Shown piece after piece: positions 13,480 to 28,076 of a stretch of 64,000 nucleotides of DNA (its first letter is position 1; each line of letters starts with the position of its first letter). A program made the translations under genes and the position numbers. Origin of the DNA: Streptomyces sp. ISL-1 (GTDB lineage: Bacteria; Actinomycetota; Actinomycetes; Streptomycetales; Streptomycetaceae); contig NZ_JAGGOI010000017.1 of assembly GCF_018614585.1 (NCBI RefSeq), positions 62,001 through 126,000 on the forward strand, read 5' to 3'. The notes beneath the pieces were generated by a model. It did not search any database and was not told where the DNA came from. It was given only the letters and a program-made list of their open reading frames with translations.

Positions 13480-14346
13480 ATGCCCCCAGTCATCGCCGTC
13501 ACCGGAGCAAGTGGCCGCGTCGGGGGGCGGGTTGCCCGTCGGCTTGTCGGGGCCGGGGCCGCCGTTCGGCTGCTCGGGCGGGATCCGGGGCGGCTGCCCG
13601 CGCCGGCGGGGGCCGACATCGCGCCCGCCGCCGATTACCGGGACGGGGAGGCGATGCGGCGGGCCCTCGACGGGGCGCAGACGCTGTTTCTCGTCTCCGC
13701 GCACGAGGCGCGCGAACGGGTGCGGGTGCACACCAGCGCTGTCGACGCCGCCGTCGCGGCGGGGATCGAGCGCATCGTGTACGTGTCCTTCCTCGGCGCC
13801 GCGCCCGACGCGACGTTCACGTACGCCCGCGACCACTGGCACACCGAGGAGTACATCCGGGGCACGGGGCCGGCGTACACCTTCCTGCGGGACAGCTTCT
13901 ATCTGGCCGAGCTGCCGGCGATGGCCGGGGCGGACGGGGTGATCCGCGGGCCCGCGGGCGAGGGGCGGGTGGCCGCCGTCGCGCACGAGGACATCGCGGA
14001 CGTGGCCGCTGCCGTGCTGCTGGGCGATGGGCACGACGGGGCGACGTACGACGTCACCGGGCCCGTCGCGCTCTCCCTCGCCGAGGTGGCCGGGGAACTG
14101 AGCCGGGTCACCGGGCGCACGGTCACCTATGTGCCCGAGACGCGCGAGGAGGCGTACGCCTCACGGGCCCACTACGGCGTCGAGGACTGGGAGGTCACCG
14201 GCTGGGTGTCCTCGTACGAGGCGATCGCCGCCGGGGAGATGGCCACCGTCTCCGATGCCGTACCGCGGTTGACCGGGCACCCGGCGAAGACCTTCGCCGG
14301 GTATTTGATGGACAACCCGGACAGCTACGGGCACCTCTTGCCCTGA
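13480..14346 (+). CDS. NAD(P)-binding NmrA-like / atypical SDR reductase
   Basis: 288 aa from ATG 13480 with GAGGAGAGGA upstream. The nucleotide-binding motif [16 protein letters not shown] is at the N-terminus, followed by [12 protein letters not shown], which favours [34 protein letters not shown] and [13 protein letters not shown] are typical of the NmrA/QOR2-like atypical short-chain group. These enzymes reduce quinones or sense NADP; the substrate is unknown. The gene is convergent with hutI and their 3' ends overlap by 22 bp. Confidence 0.85.
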
Positions 14347-15497
14347 CGCCATACGTCCGAGACGAGCGGGACGCCCGGCCGGTAGGCGAGGTGGACATGG
14401 CTCGGGGCGTCGAGCAGCACGAGGTCGGCGCGGGCGCCGGGGGTGATGCGGCCGATGTCCGTACGGCGCAGCGCCCGCGCCCCGCCGGCCGTCGCGGACC
14501 AGATGGCTTCGTCCGGGGTCATCTTCATGTCCCGTACGGCGAGGGCGATGCAGAACGGGACGGAGGACGTGAACGACGAGCCCGGGTTGCAGTCCGTGGA
14601 CAGCGCGACGGTCACGCCGGCGTCGAGCAGGCGGCGGGCGTCCGGCCATTCGGCGCGGGTGGAGAACTCCGCGCCGGGCAGCAGCGTGGCGACGGTCTCG
14701 CTGCTCGCGAGGGCGTCGACGTCCGCGTCGGTGAGGTGCGTGCAGTGGTCGGCGGAGGCGGCGTCGAGCTCGACGGCGAGCTGCACGCCGGGGCCGTAGC
14801 TCAGCTGGTTGGCGTGCACACGGGGGTGCAGGCCCTTCGCCTTGCCGGCGGTGAGGATCGCGCGGGCCTGGTCGCCGTCGAAGGCCCCCTTCTCGCAGAA
14901 GACGTCGACCCAACGGGCGTACGGAGCACAGGCGTCGAGCATCTCGCCGGTGACGAGGGCGACGTAGGCGGCGGGGTCGTCGGCGTAGTCGGGCGGGACG
15001 ATGTGCGCGCCGAGGTAGGTGATCTCGTCGGTGTGCCTCGCAGCGATCCGCAGGGCGCGGGCCTCGTCCTCGACGGTGAGCCCGTAGCCGGACTTGGTCT
15101 CGAAAGTGGTGGTGCCCTGGCGCAGCGCCTCGCGGAGGTAGTGCGTGAGGTTCGCTTCGAGCGCTTCGTCAGAGGCCGCGCGAGTGGCGGCGACGGTGGT
15201 GCGGATGCCGCCGGCGGTATAGGCGCGGCCGGACATCCGGGCGTTGAACTCCTGGGTGCGGTCGCCGGCGAAGAGGAGGTGGGAGTGGGAATCGACGAAG
15301 CCGGGGATGACGGCGCGGCCGGCGGCGTCGACGGCCTCATCGGCTGCCGGGGCGTCGGCGTTGGGTCCGACCCATGCGATGCGGTCGCCGTCGATGACTA
15401 CGGCGGCGTCCTGGAGGAGGCCGATGGGGGTTCCGTCGCCGAGGGCGGGGTCGTTGGTGACGAGGCTGCCGATGTTGGTGATGACGGTGGTGGTCAT
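14325..15497 (-). CDS. hutI: Imidazolonepropionase HutI
   Basis: 390 aa from ATG 15497 with a GAGAGGAA site. Amidohydrolase-superfamily enzyme of histidine catabolism that opens 4-imidazolone-5-propionate to N-formimino-L-glutamate. Visible: metal site [13 protein letters not shown], substrate region [75 protein letters not shown] and the C-terminal [13 protein letters not shown]. Full family length. It follows hutF in the same direction with an 10-bp gap and is the last gene of the hutU - amidohydrolase - hutF - hutI operon. Confidence 0.93.
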
Positions 15498-15507
15498 GGG
15501 TTCCTCT

Positions 15508-16857
15508 CTAGCCGCGCAGCGCTGCGATGGACGAGGCGAGGGCCGCCGGGACGTCCGGGACCAGGACGTGCGAACCGTCCCGCACCACCTGGCGGCCCGC
15601 CACGACCGTGTGGCGCACATCCGCCGCCGTCGCCGCGAAGATCGCCGTCTCGACCGCCAGGCGCTGCACCGGACCCGCCGTGCGGACCGAGTCCAGGGCC
15701 ACCGTCGTGAAGTCCGCCAGCATGCCCGGCTCGAGGCGGCCCGCTTCGTGCCATCCCAGTGCGGCGTGGCCGTCTTCGGTCGCGGCCCGCAGCAGGGCCG
15801 CGGCCGTCCAGTGGCCGCGCGTCCGGGTGCGCAGGCGTTCGTTCAGTTCCATCGCGCGCGCCTCCTCCAGCAGGTCGATCACAGCATGGCTGTCGCTGCC
15901 GAGCGACAGCGGTGAGCCGGCCCCCTGCAGCGCCGCCGCCGGGCCGATGCCGTCCGCCAGGTCGCGTTCCGTCGTCGGGCACATGCACGTGCCCGACGAC
16001 GTCCCGCCCAGCAGCGCGACGTCCTCGTTCGTCAGATGCGTGTTGTGGACGCCCGTCGTCCGCGGGCCCAGTACGCCGTGGTCGGCGAGCAGTCGCGTCG
16101 GGGTGCACCCGTGCGCGGCGAGGCACGCCTCGTTCTCCGCCGTCTGCTCGGAGAGGTGGACATGGAGCGGGGCCCGGCGCTCCTGTGCCCACTGAGCCAC
16201 CGTGCTCAGCTGCCCGGCCGGGACCGCGCGTACCGAATGGATCGCCGCGCCGATCAGCGCATGGTCGCCGCCCTTCAGCGCGGAGGCCCGTTCGGCCCAC
16301 GCCTCTGCCGTGCCGTCGGAGAAGCGCAACTGGAGCTTGGTCGGCGCCTCGCCACTGTGCTTATTCCTGATGGCGGACGACAGATACGCCGTGTCCAGCA
16401 GCGTGATCCGGATCCCCGCATCCGCCGCCGCCGCGATCAGTGCCTCGCCCATCGCGTTCGGGTCGCGGTACGCGGCCCCGCCCGGCGCGTGGTGCAGATA
16501 GTGGAACTCGCCGACCGCCGTGATCCCGGCCAGCGCCATCTCCGCGTACACCGCCCGGGCGAGCGAGAAGTACGTTTCCGGTGTCAGCCGCGACGCGACC
16601 TGGTACATCACCTCGCGCCAGGTCCAGAAGGTCCCGGCGCCCACCTGCACCGTGCCCCGCAGGGCGCGGTGGAAGGCGTGCGAGTGTGCGTTCGCGAGGC
16701 CCGGGATCGTCAGGCCGCGCAGCACTACGGCGCCCGGCGGCGGGGCTTCGGCCCCCTTGCGTACGGCGGTGATCCGGCCGTCCGCCACCTCGAGCGCCAC
16801 GCCCGGCTCGACGTTCGTTTCCAGCCAGGCGTGTTCCGCCCAGTACGTCAACTGCAC
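15508..16857 (-). CDS. hutF: Formimidoylglutamate deiminase HutF
   Basis: 449 aa from GTG 16857, which lies inside the end of the upstream gene (10-bp overlap), indicating translational coupling. Hydrolyses N-formimino-L-glutamate to N-formyl-L-glutamate and ammonia. Visible: [19 protein letters not shown] at the start, metal site [75 protein letters not shown] and [17 protein letters not shown]. These fit HutF rather than a generic deaminase. Its product needs a deformylase; see the neighbouring M20 enzyme. Confidence 0.92.
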
Positions 16858-18269
16858 GCCAGGCCCTCCAGTACGTCGGCGAGTGCGAGCACCCCGGCCA
16901 CACAGTCGTCCTCGGCGGCGAACTCCGCCGGGGAGTGCGAGACGCCCGTGGGGTTCCGTACGAACAGCATGGCCGTCGGGATGGAACCGGACAAAATACC
17001 CGCGTCGTGGCCCGCGCCCGTGCCGAGCACCGGAACCGTGCCGCCCAGGATCTTGTTCAGCTCGTCGCGCAGGGCGTGCTCGAATTCGATCACGGGGGTG
17101 AAGGACTCCCGTACGACCGTCAGGTCCACCCCGTGCCGGTCGGCGTACTCGCGCGCGGATCTTTCGATGCCGGCCGTCACCGTGTCGAGCGTGGCCTGGT
17201 CGGGAGCGCGGGAGTCCAGCCAGCCGCGCACCAGCGAGGGAATCGCGTTGACGGCGTTCGGCTCGACGGCGATCTTGCCGAACGTGGCGACCGCGCCCGC
17301 GAGTTCCGCCTCGCGGCGCGCGGCGAGGACCGTCTGCGCGTACGTCAGCATCGGGTCGCGGCGGTCGACGAGCCGCGTGGTGCCGGCGTGGTTGGCCTCG
17401 CCGTGGAAGTCGAACCGCCAGCGGCCGTGCGGCCAGATCGCGGACGCGATGCCGACCCGGTCGCCGGACAGGTCGAGGGCACGGCCCTGCTCGACGTGGA
17501 GCTCGACGAACGCGCCGATACGGGCGAGCCGTTCGGGGTCGGGACCGATGGTGGACGGGTCGTATCCGGCCGCCTCCATGGCCTGCGGGAGCGACACCCC
17601 GTCGCCGTCGCGGAGCCCGTACGCCGCTTCGCGCGTCAGCTGTCCGGCCGCGAGTCGCGAGCCGACGCAGGCGAGGCCGAAGCGGGCGCCCTCCTCGTCA
17701 CCGAAGTTGGTGATGGCGAGGGGCCGGGTGAACTCCGCTCCCCTGCGGCGGAGTTCATCGAGCGCGGCGAAGGAGGAGACGACGCCGAGGGGGCCGTCGA
17801 ACGCGCCGCCGTCGGGGACGGAGTCGAGGTGCGAGCCGGTGACGACGGCGCCGGGGGCGGTGGGGTCGCCGAGCCAGGCCCACTGGTTGCCGTTGCGGTC
17901 GGTCTCGTAGGTGAGGCCGCGGGTTTCTGCCTGGGCCCGGAACCAGGCGCGGCAGTCGGTGTCGGCGGCGGTCCAGGCGTAGCGGCGGTAGCCGCGGGTT
18001 TCCGGGTTGCGGCCGATGGGGGCGAGGTCCGCCCACATCTGGTGGAAGGACTCCCCGGCCCTGTCCCTTCCCACTGTTTCACCGTGCGGCTCCGCCGCGT
18101 GGGGGCTCCGCGCCGGACCCTCCCCCTCCGCCCCGCGGGCGTGCGGGGACCCCCGCTCCTCAAACGCCGGAGGGGTTGATTCCGCCCGCCCGCCGCCCGT
18201 GGGGGCAGCCTCGCCCGGGGCCCGGTGCTCCGGCGCCGGGCCGGCCGGGTTGGCGTCGGCCGACGTCAC
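16848..18269 (-). CDS. M20-family amidohydrolase (allantoate/N-carbamoyl-amino-acid hydrolase type) in the hut operon
   Basis: 473 aa from GTG 18269, overlapping the hutU stop by 4 nt. The enzymatic part begins near residue 70 ([14 protein letters not shown]). Motifs: [20 protein letters not shown] (metal His and bridging Asp), [11 protein letters not shown] (Glu pair), [35 protein letters not shown] and [12 protein letters not shown]. These are the AllC/HyuC-type dimetal hydrolases. In this operon the expected next reaction is N-formylglutamate to glutamate plus formate (HutG), and no HutG is present, so this enzyme probably does it; that is inference. Residues about 24-65 derive from an inserted repeat. 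Confidence 0.85.
18065..18183. repeat. Streptomyces-type extragenic palindromic repeat inserted in frame in a coding region
   Basis: Contains GCTCCTCAAACGCCGGAGGG next to GC-rich palindromic arms, a signature I recognise from repeats normally found between Streptomyces genes. Here it lies inside the first 70 codons of the M20 gene and is translated as [15 protein letters not shown] and following residues without breaking the frame. Confidence 0.7.
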
Positions 18270-19930
18270 GCCTGGTCCCCTTCCCGCATCGGGACCCGCA
18301 CGCCACGCTCGTCCGCGACCGACTCCGCGATGTCGTAGCCCGCGTCCACATGCCGGATGACGCCCATTCCCGGGTCGTTCGTCAGCACCCGGCGGATCTT
18401 CTCGCCGGCCAGCTTCGTGCCGTCCGCCACGGAGACCTGGCCCGCATGGATGGAGCGGCCCATGCCGACGCCGCCGCCGTGGTGGATGGAGACCCAGCTC
18501 GCGCCGGACGCGACATTGACCATCGCGTTCAGCAGCGGCCAGTCGGCGATCGCGTCGGAGCCGTCGAGCATGGCCTCCGTCTCGCGGTACGGGGACGCCA
18601 CCGAGCCGCAGTCCAGGTGGTCGCGGCCGATCACCAGCGGGGCGGCCAGCTCGCCGGACGCCACCATGTCGTTGAAGCGCTCGCCCGCGCGGTCCCGCTC
18701 GCCGTAGCCCAGCCAGCAGATACGGGCCGGCAGGCCCTGGAAGTGGACGCGCTCGCCGGCCAGCTTGATCCAGCGGTGCAGGGACTCGTTCTCGGGGAAG
18801 AGCTCGAGCATCGCCTTGTCGGTCTTGTGGATGTCCGAAGCCTCACCCGACAGGGCGGCCCAGCGGAACGGGCCCTTGCCCTCGCAGAACAGCGGCCGGA
18901 TGTACGCCGGGACGAAGCCGGGGAAGTCGAACGCCCGGCCGTAACCGGCCAGTTGCGCCTCGCCACGGATCGAGTTGCCGTAGTCGAAGACCTCGGCGCC
19001 CGCGTCCATGAAGCCGACCATGGCTTCCACATGCCTGGCCATCGACTCACGCGCGCGCTGTGTGAAGTCGGCCGGCTTCTCCGCCGCGTACGACTGCATG
19101 TCGTCGAGGTCGACACCGACCGGCAGGTAGGCCAGCGGATCGTGGGCGCTCGTCTGGTCGGTCACGATGTCGATCGGCGCGCCCTCGGCGAGCATCCTCG
19201 GCAGCAGCTCCGCCGCGTTGCCGAGCAGGCCGATGGAGAGCGGGCGGCGCGCGTCGCGTGCCTCGACGGCCAGCTGGAGCGCGTGCTCCAGCGAGTTCGC
19301 GCGCACGTCCAGGTAGCGGTGCTCGATACGGCGCTCGATCGCCCGCGGGTCGACGTCGATACAGATCGCGACGCCGTCGTTCATGGTGACGGCCAGCGGC
19401 TGCGCGCCGCCCATTCCGCCCAGACCGGCGGTCAGAGTGATCGTCCCGGCCAGCGTGCCGCCGAACTTCTTCGCGGCGACGGCGGCGAACGTCTCGTACG
19501 TGCCCTGCAGAATGCCCTGTGTGCCGATGTAGATCCACGAACCGGCCGTCATCTGGCCGTACATGGTGAGGCCGAGTGCCTCGAGACGCCGGAACTCCTC
19601 CCAGTTCGCCCAGTCACCGACCAGGTTGGAGTTGGCGATGAGCACGCGCGGCGCCCACTCGTGCGTCTGCATCACACCGACCGGGCGGCCGGACTGGACG
19701 AGCATCGTTTCGTCCTGCTTCAGCGTCCGCAGCGTGCGCACCATCGCGTCGAAGGAGCGCCAGTCGCGGGCGGCCTTGCCGGTGCCGCCGTAGACGACGA
19801 GCTTGTCCGGGTGCTCGGCGACCTCGGGGTCGAGGTTGTTCTGGAGCATGCGGAGGGCGGCCTCCTGCTGCCATCCCAGGGCGCTCAGTTCCGTACCGCG
19901 CGGTGCCCGTACGGGTCGGGGTCCTGACAT
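18266..19930 (-). CDS. hutU: Urocanate hydratase HutU
   Basis: 554 aa, the normal family length, from ATG 19930. Converts urocanate to 4-imidazolone-5-propionate using tightly bound NAD as electrophile. Visible: [66 protein letters not shown] (dinucleotide site), [31 protein letters not shown] and [19 protein letters not shown]. It is the first gene of the hut operon. Expression probably responds to the paired inverted repeats just upstream (19957-19999). Confidence 0.95.
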
Positions 19931-25119: not shown

Positions 25120-25383
25120 TCAGCGGCGCCGCGCCCCGCGGGGTGCGGCGTCGCCGCCCGCGACGCCGATGGCCCGAAAGCCCTTGAAGGGCGCGACGAC
25201 AGGGCCCTTCGCGATCCGGTCGGTACGGATCCACAGCAGCGTCCCGCTCGCCCGCTCCCGGCGGCCGAGCCAGGGCGCCTCGACGCAGAGACCGGGCAGC
25301 CCGACGCCGGCGAGCAGCAGCGGTGCGCCCGCCGCCAGACCCGCAGGTCACACGGCCCGCGCCCCGCCGCAGCCCGTGGCCAC
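25120..25383 (-). pseudogene. 88-codon frame with an internal TGA, coupled to the RpiR gene
   Basis: A GTG at 25383 overlaps the end of the RpiR stop region and opens a frame that is protein-like except for a TGA at 25348-25350 (codon 12). After the stop it reads APLLLAGVGLPGLCVEAPWL and LLWIRTDRIAKGPVVAPFKG before the final TGA. Composition of the second part is that of a real protein end. Either a broken small gene or one that starts internally with an unusual codon. I do not recognise the family. Confidence 0.35.
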
Positions 25384-26219
25384 TACTCCACGAACAGGCC
25401 CCGCTCCGCCGCCCTCGCGTCGAATTCTTCCAACCGCGCCTGCGCGTCGGGCAGGTCGTCGCACATCGCCTCCAGCAGCACCCGGCCCAGCAGCATCGGC
25501 GCGCACGCCGTGTCGAAGGCCAGGCCCGTGCCGACCGCCGCCGGGATCAGCAGGTCGCTGTGGCCGGCCACCGGGGCGAAGGCCGAGTCCGCGACCGTCA
25601 CCACCTTCAAGCCCGCGGAGCGTGCGTACGCCAGTGCCTCCACGACCTCCTTGGGGTGCCGCGGCAGCGCGAAGCACAGCAGCGTGGTCGCACCCGCGCG
25701 ACGGGCCGCGTCGATGCGGTCGGCGAGCATCGTGCCGCCCTCGTCCAGCAGGCGTACATCCGGGTGGACCTTGGCCGCGAAGTACGCGAAGCCCCGGGCC
25801 TGCGAGGACGCGGCGCGCAGGCCGAGCACCAGCAGCGGGCGGGACGCGGCAAGGAGCCGGCCCGCGCGTTCGACCGGGGAGGGGTCGGCGAGCAGCTCGG
25901 CCAGATGACTCAGGTTCTCGATCTCGGCGTGCACCGCCTGCTGGTACTCGTTGTACGCGTCCGGGCCCGCCTCACTCGAAGCGGGCGCGACCTCCCGCAG
26001 ATGCCGGCGCAGCGCCGGATAGCCGTCGAAGCCGAGCGCGACGGCGAAGCGGGTGACGGACGGCTGGCTGACACCGGCCAGTTCGGCGAGCTCCACGCTG
26101 GACAGGAACGGCACATCGCCCGCCCGCCGCACCATGCTGTGCGCGATCCGCCGCTGCGTCGGGGTGAGCCGGTGGCCCTCGAAAAGCTGCTGCAGTCTCG
26201 CGGCAGGGCTTTCGCTCAT
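25383..26219 (-). CDS. MurR/RpiR-family transcriptional regulator
   Basis: 278 aa from ATG 26219, overlapping the stop of the upstream lyase gene (4 nt). N-terminal RpiR helix-turn-helix: LTPTQRRIAHSMVRRAGDV, LSSVELAELAGVSQPSVTRF and GFDGYPALRRHL. The C-terminal SIS domain (LLVLGLRAASSQARGFAYF, LLCFALPRHPKEVVEALAYA) normally senses a phosphosugar. In Streptomyces, RpiR proteins paired with lyase-family genes are common. It probably regulates its own operon, and perhaps the hut genes, which is inference. Confidence 0.87.
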   Translation of the reverse strand: MSESPAARLQQLFEGHRLTPTQRRIAHSMVRRAGDVPFLSSVELAELAGVSQPSVTRFAVALGFDGYPALRRHLREVAPASSEAGPDAYNEYQQAVHAEIENLSHLAELLADPSPVERAGRLLAASRPLLVLGLRAASSQARGFAYFAAKVHPDVRLLDEGGTMLADRIDAARRAGATTLLCFALPRHPKEVVEALAYARSAGLKVVTVADSAFAPVAGHSDLLIPAAVGTGLAFDTACAPMLLGRVLLEAMCDDLPDAQARLEEFDARAAERGLFVE

Positions 26220-27730
26220 GCCATCCCCCTCGTCGTGTCCCTCATCAGGTCCGTGAACCGGTCGAGCAGCCCGGCCGCCCGCGTCACATCGTCGGTGAGC
26301 GGCCGGTCGGCGACGTCCTCGTCGAGGACCGACTCGGCCAGCTCGAAGGCGCGACCCACCGGGAGTTCCGGGTCGGGGCGCAGCCCGCGCTGGCGCAACG
26401 CCCGTACCGCCGCGACGAGTTCACAGCCGATGACGAGCCGGTACGCGCCCCCCGCCCGCAGCGTCTGACGCGCCGCCAGCGAGGCGAAGCTGGCCTGTTC
26501 CTCGACGCCCCGGGACAGTACCGCGTGGCCGAGCGACGCGGGCGCGGAAAAGGCACGCAGATCGCCGAGGGCCGCGCCCGCCGCGTATTCGAGGATCATC
26601 ACGCCGGAGCTCGCGGCCTCCGCGTCCGCGAGGAAGGGCCGCAGCCGGGTGAAGGCGGGCTCGTTCAGGGCGGAGAGCCGGGAGGTGGACAGCCGCGCCG
26701 TCTGGGTGATGGCGAGCCTGAAGTGGTCGAGATCCAGGGCGAGTTGCGCCATGTAGAAGCCGCCGTGATGGTAAGCGGCCATGTCGGCGGCCCGGATCAG
26801 CGGGTTCTCGGCGGCCGCGTTGATCTCGACCGCGAGGGTCCGCTCCAGCGCGTCCGCGGCGTCCTGCGCGGGTCCGTGGATCTGCGGCAGGCAGCGGAAT
26901 CCGTACGGGTCCTGGATCCGGCCCAGCGGCGGGGTCGGCCGCTCGGGCGCACCGAGCAGTTGGCGCATCCTGGTCGCGACGGCGTACGTGCCGGGGTGCG
27001 GGCGGGCCGCGTGCACGGGTTCGGCGTAGGCCTCGTAGGAGCCGTCGACCGCGAGCAGCGAGAGGGCGGCGACCAGCTCGGTGGCCTCGACGAGCGCGCG
27101 CAGCTCGTCGAGGGCGAGCGCGGCCTGGCCGAGGGTGAGGGCGTTGGAGCTGATCAGGGCGAGGGCGTCATTGTTGTCGAGCGCCTGTGCCTCTGGGGGC
27201 GGGCCGCCCGCATCGACATTCCAGGGCTGTTCGCCAGCGAGCGCCAGCCCCATCTGGGCGAGGGCCGCGATGTCGCCGGTGCCGACCGAGCCGAACTCGT
27301 TCACGACCGGGTACGCGCCGCTCTCCAGCGCCTCGCAGAGCGCGGTGACGACGCCGGGCCGCAGTCCGGCGCCACCCGCGAGCAGCTGATTCGCCCGTAC
27401 CGCCAGCATGGCTCGGACCTCGCGGGCGGGCAGCGGCTCGCCGATCGCGCCGGCGTGCGAGCGCAGCAGCCGCAGGCCGTGGTCGGCGGCGGCCCCGGTG
27501 GGCACGTTCTCGTTCCGGTTGGCGCCCACGCCGGTGGAGCGCCCGTAGACGCGGCCGGAGGCGGCGAGCTCCCGCGCGGCGTCCCAGGCGGCCTCGACAC
27601 GCTTGATCGCTTCTGAGCCGGGTACGGGTCGAGCCGCGCCATCGGCCAGCCGGACGATGTCCGCGACCGGGAGGCTCTGTCCGTCGAGGACCACGACGCC
27701 GATGGGCGAGTCCAACATGTGGGACGACAT
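26216..27730 (-). CDS. Histidine/aromatic ammonia-lyase homologue lacking the MIO tripeptide
   Basis: 504 aa from ATG 27730 (GTG 27733 adjacent; AAAGGAGG just upstream). Family features: VYGRSTGVGANRNENVP with the catalytic Tyr near residue 62, LLRSHAGAIGEPLPAREVRA, and QDPYGFRCLPQIHGPAQDA with Tyr and Arg of the active site. However, the segment that should read GSVGASGDL is GSVGTGDI. One residue is missing and Gly150-Thr151-Gly152 replaces Ala-Ser-Gly, so the usual methylidene-imidazolone cofactor cannot form in the normal way. The NG(T/A)Q segment is also changed (LALISSNALTL). Coupled to RpiR. Likely not the housekeeping HutH; the reaction is unknown. Confidence 0.85.
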   Translation of the reverse strand: MSSHMLDSPIGVVVLDGQSLPVADIVRLADGAARPVPGSEAIKRVEAAWDAARELAASGRVYGRSTGVGANRNENVPTGAAADHGLRLLRSHAGAIGEPLPAREVRAMLAVRANQLLAGGAGLRPGVVTALCEALESGAYPVVNEFGSVGTGDIAALAQMGLALAGEQPWNVDAGGPPPEAQALDNNDALALISSNALTLGQAALALDELRALVEATELVAALSLLAVDGSYEAYAEPVHAARPHPGTYAVATRMRQLLGAPERPTPPLGRIQDPYGFRCLPQIHGPAQDAADALERTLAVEINAAAENPLIRAADMAAYHHGGFYMAQLALDLDHFRLAITQTARLSTSRLSALNEPAFTRLRPFLADAEAASSGVMILEYAAGAALGDLRAFSAPASLGHAVLSRGVEEQASFASLAARQTLRAGGAYRLVIGCELVAAVRALRQRGLRPDPELPVGRAFELAESVLDEDVADRPLTDDVTRAAGLLDRFTDLMRDTTRGMA

Positions 27731-27872
27731 CACGCGTAGACCCCTCCTTTTCGGACGGCTTGTCCTGCCTGCCGAGCATCGAGCATCTCTAACCAGTGAT
27801 TTACCCCGGGGCATTGACAACTTATTCAGACGCCGAGAACTCTGCATGACGATATGCAGGCGGGGCAAGGGG

Positions 27873-28076
27873 ATCCCCGGTCAGCATGTCGTCCCGCTGA
27901 TCGCGGACCGCAAGGCCGACTCGACGGTGCGCAAGGCGCTGGCCCGGCTCGGCGCCGCGCTGACCACGGAGCAGCTGACCGAGCTCAACCGGCAGGTCGA
28001 CAAGGACAAGAAGGACCCGGAGGACGTCGCGAACTCCTGGGCGAAGCAGCACGGCCTCGCCAAGAAGGGAAGCTGA
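27873..28076 (+). pseudogene. C-terminal remnant of an osmoprotectant ABC-transporter binding protein
   Basis: Residues VVPLIADRKADSTVRKALAR, LTTEQLTELNRQVDKDKKDP and DVANSWAKQHGLAKKGS match the end of glycine-betaine/choline-binding proteins (OpuAC family): the final helices after the second lobe. The frame upstream (from about 27603) is the antisense of the lyase gene and has no signal peptide or first lobe. Only about 70 of some 300 residues remain and no permease or ATPase is adjacent, so this is a deletion remnant. Confidence 0.6.

Follow-up and report, generated by a model that had tools for sequence, protein, structure and literature searches.

A histidine ammonia-lyase homologue without the MIO tripeptide in Streptomyces sp. 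ISL-1 is a candidate betaine lyase, possibly acting on hercynine

The window, a 64,000-nucleotide stretch of a Streptomyces sp. ISL-1 contig (NZ_JAGGOI010000017.1, positions 62,001 to 126,000), was found to encode a homologue of histidine ammonia-lyase (HAL, or HutH) that lacks the MIO tripeptide. The predicted reaction is an elimination of trimethylamine that does without MIO; its substrate would most likely be hercynine, and the urocanate formed would go to HutU. From the sequence and the gene context, I give this reading a probability of about 0.5. Homology and context make it probable that this lyase cleaves some betaine without MIO, and hercynine is the best-supported choice of that betaine, at roughly even odds. 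The MIO electrophile activates a plain amino group, but a quaternary ammonium leaves readily by itself, so MIO would not be needed to expel trimethylamine. In the proposed route, a HAL-fold lyase without MIO would expel trimethylamine from an aromatic amino acid betaine. With hercynine (Nalpha-trimethylhistidine, histidine betaine), the products would be urocanate and trimethylamine, and the urocanate would enter the HutU-HutI-HutF pathway, which is encoded nearby. Most relatives may import the betaine by a neighbouring OpuC-type ABC importer. Because this importer has been deleted from the window except for a relic, the strain would obtain hercynine from its own hercynine/ergothioneine pathway or by another transporter. 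An RpiR-type regulator probably controls the expression of the lyase.

The lyase ORF (26216-27730, minus strand) is intact and encodes 504 amino acids counted from the ATG at 27730; the stop codon lies at 26216-26218. A GTG at 27733 is also a possible start, and a Shine-Dalgarno-like AAAGGAGG was read by eye 5′ of the start (27743-27750, minus strand). The protein belongs to the aromatic amino acid lyase fold (PF00221, 370 bits versus the Pfam gathering score of 27.3), but it scores below the cut-off of the hutH equivalog TIGR01225 (283 bits versus 539). The conserved Tyr, SHAGAIGEPL, and QDPYGFRCLPQIHG segments are present as quoted in an earlier note on this DNA. The same note had described a loop one residue shorter than usual and without Ala-Ser-Gly. 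Alignment confirmed this: the GSVGTGD codons (27272-27292, minus strand) are one residue short of GSVGASGD in the P. putida HAL, and neither Ala-Ser-Gly nor Cys-Ser-Gly is present. The reported change of NGTQ needs a correction. The Asn is indeed lost, and SSNA is found in its place (27140-27151, minus strand), but the aligned actinobacterial HALs have Cys-Ser-Gly and NGTD, not Ala-Ser-Gly and NGTQ. They include the strain's own ordinary HutH, which is encoded on another contig, reads GCSGD and NGTD, and is 32% identical to the lyase. Asn195 is important in MIO enzymes, and the motifs support the earlier view that normal MIO chemistry would be impossible here. The top 80 of 262 loci from one genome-contig scan, Streptomyces orthologues with 76-86% identity, were compared, and all 80 have the loop GSVGTGD. 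Thus, a sequencing error or frameshift at the loop, the missing codon that the earlier note had named as a refuting case, is ruled out.

In trees of 49 and 48 rows, the 24 rows of actinobacterial MIO-less proteins form a separate clade with 100/100 support. The window lyase falls in this clade and not in that of the ergothionases. Removal of the loop columns and of an exceptionally long row (L115_10472) left 48 rows; in that tree, a branch with 100/96 support set the clade and the ergothionase/rhizobial group of seven rows apart from the MIO enzymes. With both included (49 rows), support for joining the clade to the ergothionases was only 71/34. The trees are unrooted, and one or two losses of MIO both fit. 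Clade members were found in at least 23 of 296 genomes of a class-wide sample. In a phylum sample of 396 genomes, with only matches of E below 1e-90 kept, there were four more carriers outside the class (G333, G404, G414, and G568). These genome counts are lower bounds; class-wide matches below about 210 bits were only sampled (seven loci, L106-L112), and all seven sampled proteins have the MIO triad. One genome (G261) has two clade members, and substrates may therefore differ within the clade.

Active-site positions were tabulated from an alignment of 28 clade members, 15 MIO enzymes, and five ergothionase-type proteins. The numbering is that of the P. putida HAL, checked by counting. No clade member deviates at Tyr53, His83, Gln277, or Arg283; Glu414 is conserved in 27 of the 28, the remaining row being cut short, and Met382 in 24. 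In HAL, His83, Met382, and Glu414 surround the imidazole. The residue aligned to Ala142 is absent from all 28 members, which also have Ser-Ser at positions 195-196. The two positions after the missing Ala142 are Thr (26) or Ile (2), then Gly (25) or Ala (3), which gives GTAD or GIGD in place of GTGD in a few members. GIGD is the form found in L180 and L183. All 28 have Glu312, where the MIO and ergothionase-type groups have Asp. Glu385 is found in 27 of 28, and also in 2/15 MIO and 2/5 ergothionase-type rows. At position 386, four of the five ergothionase-type rows have Lys, which is presumably catalytic, and the clade has Tyr (27) or Trp (1). In the window lyase, the codons of Glu381-Tyr382 (26585-26590, minus strand) encode the clade-specific Glu at HAL position 385 and the Tyr that stands where ergothionases have Lys. 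An AlphaFold2 model from a 29-sequence alignment had a mean pLDDT of 52, too poor for residue placement.

The coupling to an RpiR regulator that had been pointed out earlier was borne out in the window's Streptomyces group. The RpiR-type gene (25383-26219, minus strand; Pfam HTH_6) overlaps the lyase stop codon by four bases, and 74 of the 80 loci have it 3′ of the lyase gene in the same orientation. An OpuC-type ABC importer is complete in 59 of these loci, partial in three, and absent from 18. In all 62 importer loci, the ATPase and lyase genes are transcribed divergently, 138-410 bases apart in 61 and 1194 bases apart in one. In the window, 64 C-terminal codons of an OpuC-type binding protein remain (27873-28064, plus strand), while the rest of the importer is missing. 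This relic is 89% identical to residues 258-321 (of 324) of the L008 protein and matches positions 199-257 of the PF04069 (OpuAC) profile with 34.4 bits. Binding-protein relics were also found in L038, L039, and L069, and three further OpuAC proteins are encoded elsewhere in the strain's genome. The importer owes its betaine label to Pfam OpuAC and the best matches only, the curated betaine cut-offs being missed by the ATPase (305 of 326.6) and by the binding protein (69 of 400). The nearest solved relatives of the binding proteins include engineered nicotine/acetylcholine sensors as well as EgtUC. The lyase-linked binding protein at L114:18553-19692 looks like a circular permutation of the ProX/EgtUC arrangement: its C-terminal half aligns with the N-terminal half of those proteins.

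A hut gene cluster lies on the minus strand of the window. It consists of a canonical hutU (18266-19930; TIGR01228, 909 bits, cut-off 375; thiourocanate hydratase model, 650 bits, cut-off 930), a gene for an allantoate amidohydrolase-like protein (16848-18269; NF006770, 662 bits, cut-off 372), the formimidoylglutamate deiminase gene hutF (15508-16857; NF006681, 685 bits, cut-off 362; TIGR02022, 526 bits, cut-off 413), and the imidazolonepropionase gene hutI (14325-15620; TIGR01224, 379 bits, cut-off 298). The hutU gene is about 6 kb from the lyase gene, and the two are not in one operon because plus-strand genes separate them. In 47 of the 80 Streptomyces loci, hutU lies inside the fetched flank of at most 6 kb. 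Full-length HutU-type genes are present in 26 of 27 lyase genomes and in 43 of 47 other genomes, which were chosen by their missing clade-level match without a check of every motif. Since such genes are nearly universal in these families, their mere presence proves nothing, and it was rejected as evidence by itself.

Are these neighbours common to more distant clade members? The distant set comprised 22 loci, L180-L183 included; L183 is a 4.2-kb fragment and was counted as a miss. Genes of unannotated loci were called with my own GC3-based script and are approximate. At least one OpuC importer component was found in 15 of the 22 loci. A hutU gene was found in six, and none was seen in the other 16. 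No OpuC component was found in seven, of which six, one being the L183 fragment, have neither OpuC nor hutU. An MIO enzyme is the only lyase in seven loci (L129, L131, L132, L141, L146, L148, and L186), and none of them has an OpuC ATPase of at least 250 bits, although this control is small. In L136, an Arthrobacter plasmid, genes for an IclR regulator, an ATPase, two permeases, a binding protein, HutU, and the lyase follow one another on the plus strand, never more than 184 bases apart, and no hutH was found in the 19.4 kb fetched. In L181, one strand carries genes for RpiR (54% to the window's RpiR), a symporter (named by eye), HutH, OpuC, the MIO-less lyase, the allantoate amidohydrolase-like protein, HutU, HutF, and HutI. 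In L117 and L123, none of the neighbour genes sought was seen. Of the 22 distant loci, only two, L115 and L181, have the RpiR gene, and RpiR was rejected as a hallmark of the clade at large. Thus, of the clade with RpiR neighbours that the earlier note had proposed to look for, the clade itself stands, while the RpiR linkage is regular only in the window's Streptomyces group. Across the clade, a betaine-type importer is the more frequent companion, and hut genes are a rarer one. Two genomes of different classes also have a third, very diverged PF00221 homologue in the vicinity of their MIO-less lyase and hut genes (L115:10472-11941 and L182:12357-14510, both minus strand). It has the loop A-GE or AAGE and the segment QAPVSFRV.

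The 16 distant loci in which no hutU was seen are consistent with a trimethylamine lyase for another aromatic betaine, such as tryptophan, tyrosine, or phenylalanine betaine or a modified hercynine. A subgroup of loci has genes for a LacI regulator and an HQH-motif protein instead. This pair was found in three of the six distant loci without OpuC and hutU, in six of 18 distant loci when L180-L183 are outside the count, and in five of the 80 Streptomyces loci. The LacI regulator and the VHQH-motif protein accompany the lyase at L113:14229-15188 and in the neighbourhoods of L115, L119, L121, L122, and L135; the one HQH-motif protein that was scanned had no Pfam match. In addition, the gene for an Agrobacterium lyase that lacks three loop residues adjoins a betaine-type importer and beta-oxidation genes, and other aryl betaines may therefore serve MIO-less lyases. 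On the other hand, His83, Met382 (24/28), and Glu414 are kept, and the window's group and several distant members lie near hut genes. For the window lyase, an aromatic betaine of this other kind is unlikely.

It was also considered whether the protein is a true actinobacterial ergothionase. In PMC13405746, ergothionase is described as an enzyme without MIO that splits ergothioneine into trimethylamine and thiourocanic acid. Further facts on ergothionases were drawn from PMC7653990 and PMC9103826. The window lyase resembles ergothionases in losing the MIO triad by a one-residue deletion and in its SxNA motif. The strain also has ergothioneine biosynthesis genes: EgtD is encoded twice, each time with EgtA and EgtB (egtA, egtB, egtC, and egtD at L184, G000:C44; a second egtA, egtB, and egtD at L185, G000:C22), and EgtC was seen in the first set. 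With two EgtD genes, hercynine is presumably made in the cell as well. Two lyase-linked binding proteins that were searched match EgtUC (E of about 3e-16 and 3e-23), whose specificity is taken from PMC9732360, but EgtUC is not their nearest solved relative. The deep, separate clade and the Tyr or Trp in place of Lys at position 386 in 28/28 members also argue against an ergothionase. The same holds for the linked HutUs that were scored. Those of L136, L113, L114, L115, L182, and the window are canonical, with 875-928 bits for hutU (cut-off 375) and 626-663 for thiourocanate hydratase (cut-off 930), and the L181 HutU (genome G333) reaches 680 against the latter cut-off. Among the 74 genomes scored, no thiourocanate hydratase passed the cut-off, either in the 27 lyase genomes or in the 47 others, while that of the Burkholderia ergothionase-type locus L137 did (1050 versus 930). 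This partner is not a strict feature of ergothionases, since a Paracoccus saliphilus plasmid has an ergothionase-type gene immediately after a complete hut cluster with a canonical hutU (L144:1060-9599). A plasmid search with HutU gave no lead. An OpuC ATPase of 250 bits is missing from all five ergothionase-type loci (L137, L140, and L143-L145), and the importer is therefore no mark of ergothionases. An ergothionase role for the window lyase is unlikely.

Has the lyase function been lost altogether? The loss of the MIO triad, the coupling to a regulator gene, and the retention of the gene in 18/80 loci without a detectable importer would fit a homologue with a binding, regulatory, or structural role, or an enzyme that expels some other group. 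However, the catalytic and carboxylate-binding positions Tyr53, Arg283, and Glu414 are kept throughout a deep clade, and this disfavours the sensor or structural role that the earlier note had allowed. Moreover, enzymes of one pathway adjoin the lyase in several genomes. A protein without lyase function is quite unlikely. Histidine deamination by a self-made cofactor of another kind, for which overall HAL similarity (TIGR01225, 283 bits, below the cut-off) speaks, is very improbable, since neither Ala-Ser-Gly nor Cys-Ser-Gly is present, Asn195 is Ser in 28/28 clade members, a normal HutH is encoded elsewhere in the genome, and no evidence of a differently formed cofactor was found.

The trimethylamine lyase for hercynine is thus the preferred reading. 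The earlier note had offered a new reaction type as one option; it is the option that fits best, but the reaction would not be wholly new, because ergothionase is a known MIO-less member of the fold that expels trimethylamine. If the reading is true, an enzyme and a gene cluster for hercynine breakdown would be at hand; neither was found in the open literature searched, with most subscription papers outside it. It would also explain proteins that score as sub-threshold histidine ammonia-lyases and would connect the ergothioneine and histidine pathways of Streptomyces. Whether or not a sequence provides for MIO might then predict if an amine or a quaternary ammonium is the leaving group. As a tentative generalization, which I hold a little less likely than its opposite, the MIO-free clade of Actinomycetota may constitute a "hercynine shunt" (OpuC importer and histidine-betaine trimethylamine-lyase, then urocanate and Hut), and MIO loss in this fold may generally mark quaternary-ammonium lyases. 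In addition to the ergothionase case, three clades that differ in their loop have members beside betaine-type importers: GTGD (this study), GA-GD (rhizobia), and GY---L (Agrobacterium).

Among known systems, HutH (P. putida 1b8f; the strain's own on contig C51) shares with the window lyase the fold, most substrate-side residues, hut neighbours in some genomes, and urocanate as the product, which is a prediction for the lyase. Unlike HutH, the lyase has no MIO tripeptide and no Asn195. The MIO triad has also been lost from two rhizobial proteins annotated as histidine ammonia-lyase (L138:5986-7488 and L147:5992-7467; loop GSIGA-GDL) and from two lyases with a three-residue deletion (L139:5968-7515 and L142:6001-7488; loop GSVGY---L). 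These belong to other clades with other neighbours. The rhizobial "hutH" genes lie beside betaine-type ABC transporters, LLM flavin oxidoreductase genes, and ornithine cyclodeaminase-like genes. The L139 gene of Agrobacterium adjoins a betaine-type importer and CoA-transferase/beta-oxidation genes, which suggests another aryl-betaine pathway; no such importer adjoins L142. Another close known system is ergothionase (T. denticola 6s7j/6s7q; Burkholderia sp. HME13), and the T. denticola structure is the third-best match of the lyase among solved structures (E 8e-43). The T. denticola loop SSIGEGDI aligns without gaps with GSVGTGDI of the window lyase, and SCNA with SSNA. The two have the same fold and the Tyr53, His83, Arg283, and Glu414 positions in common, and the trimethylamine that ergothionase releases is the predicted leaving group of the window lyase. 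In contrast to ergothionases, the actinobacterial proteins form their own clade, lack the Lys at position 386, have Glu at 312 and 385, Met or Leu at 382, and mostly Tyr or Phe at 280 (Leu in 5/5 ergothionase-type rows), often lie beside an OpuC-type importer, and have a canonical HutU where hut genes are linked. MIO loss in this fold is already known from ergothionase, and the window lyase is not a new kind of system.
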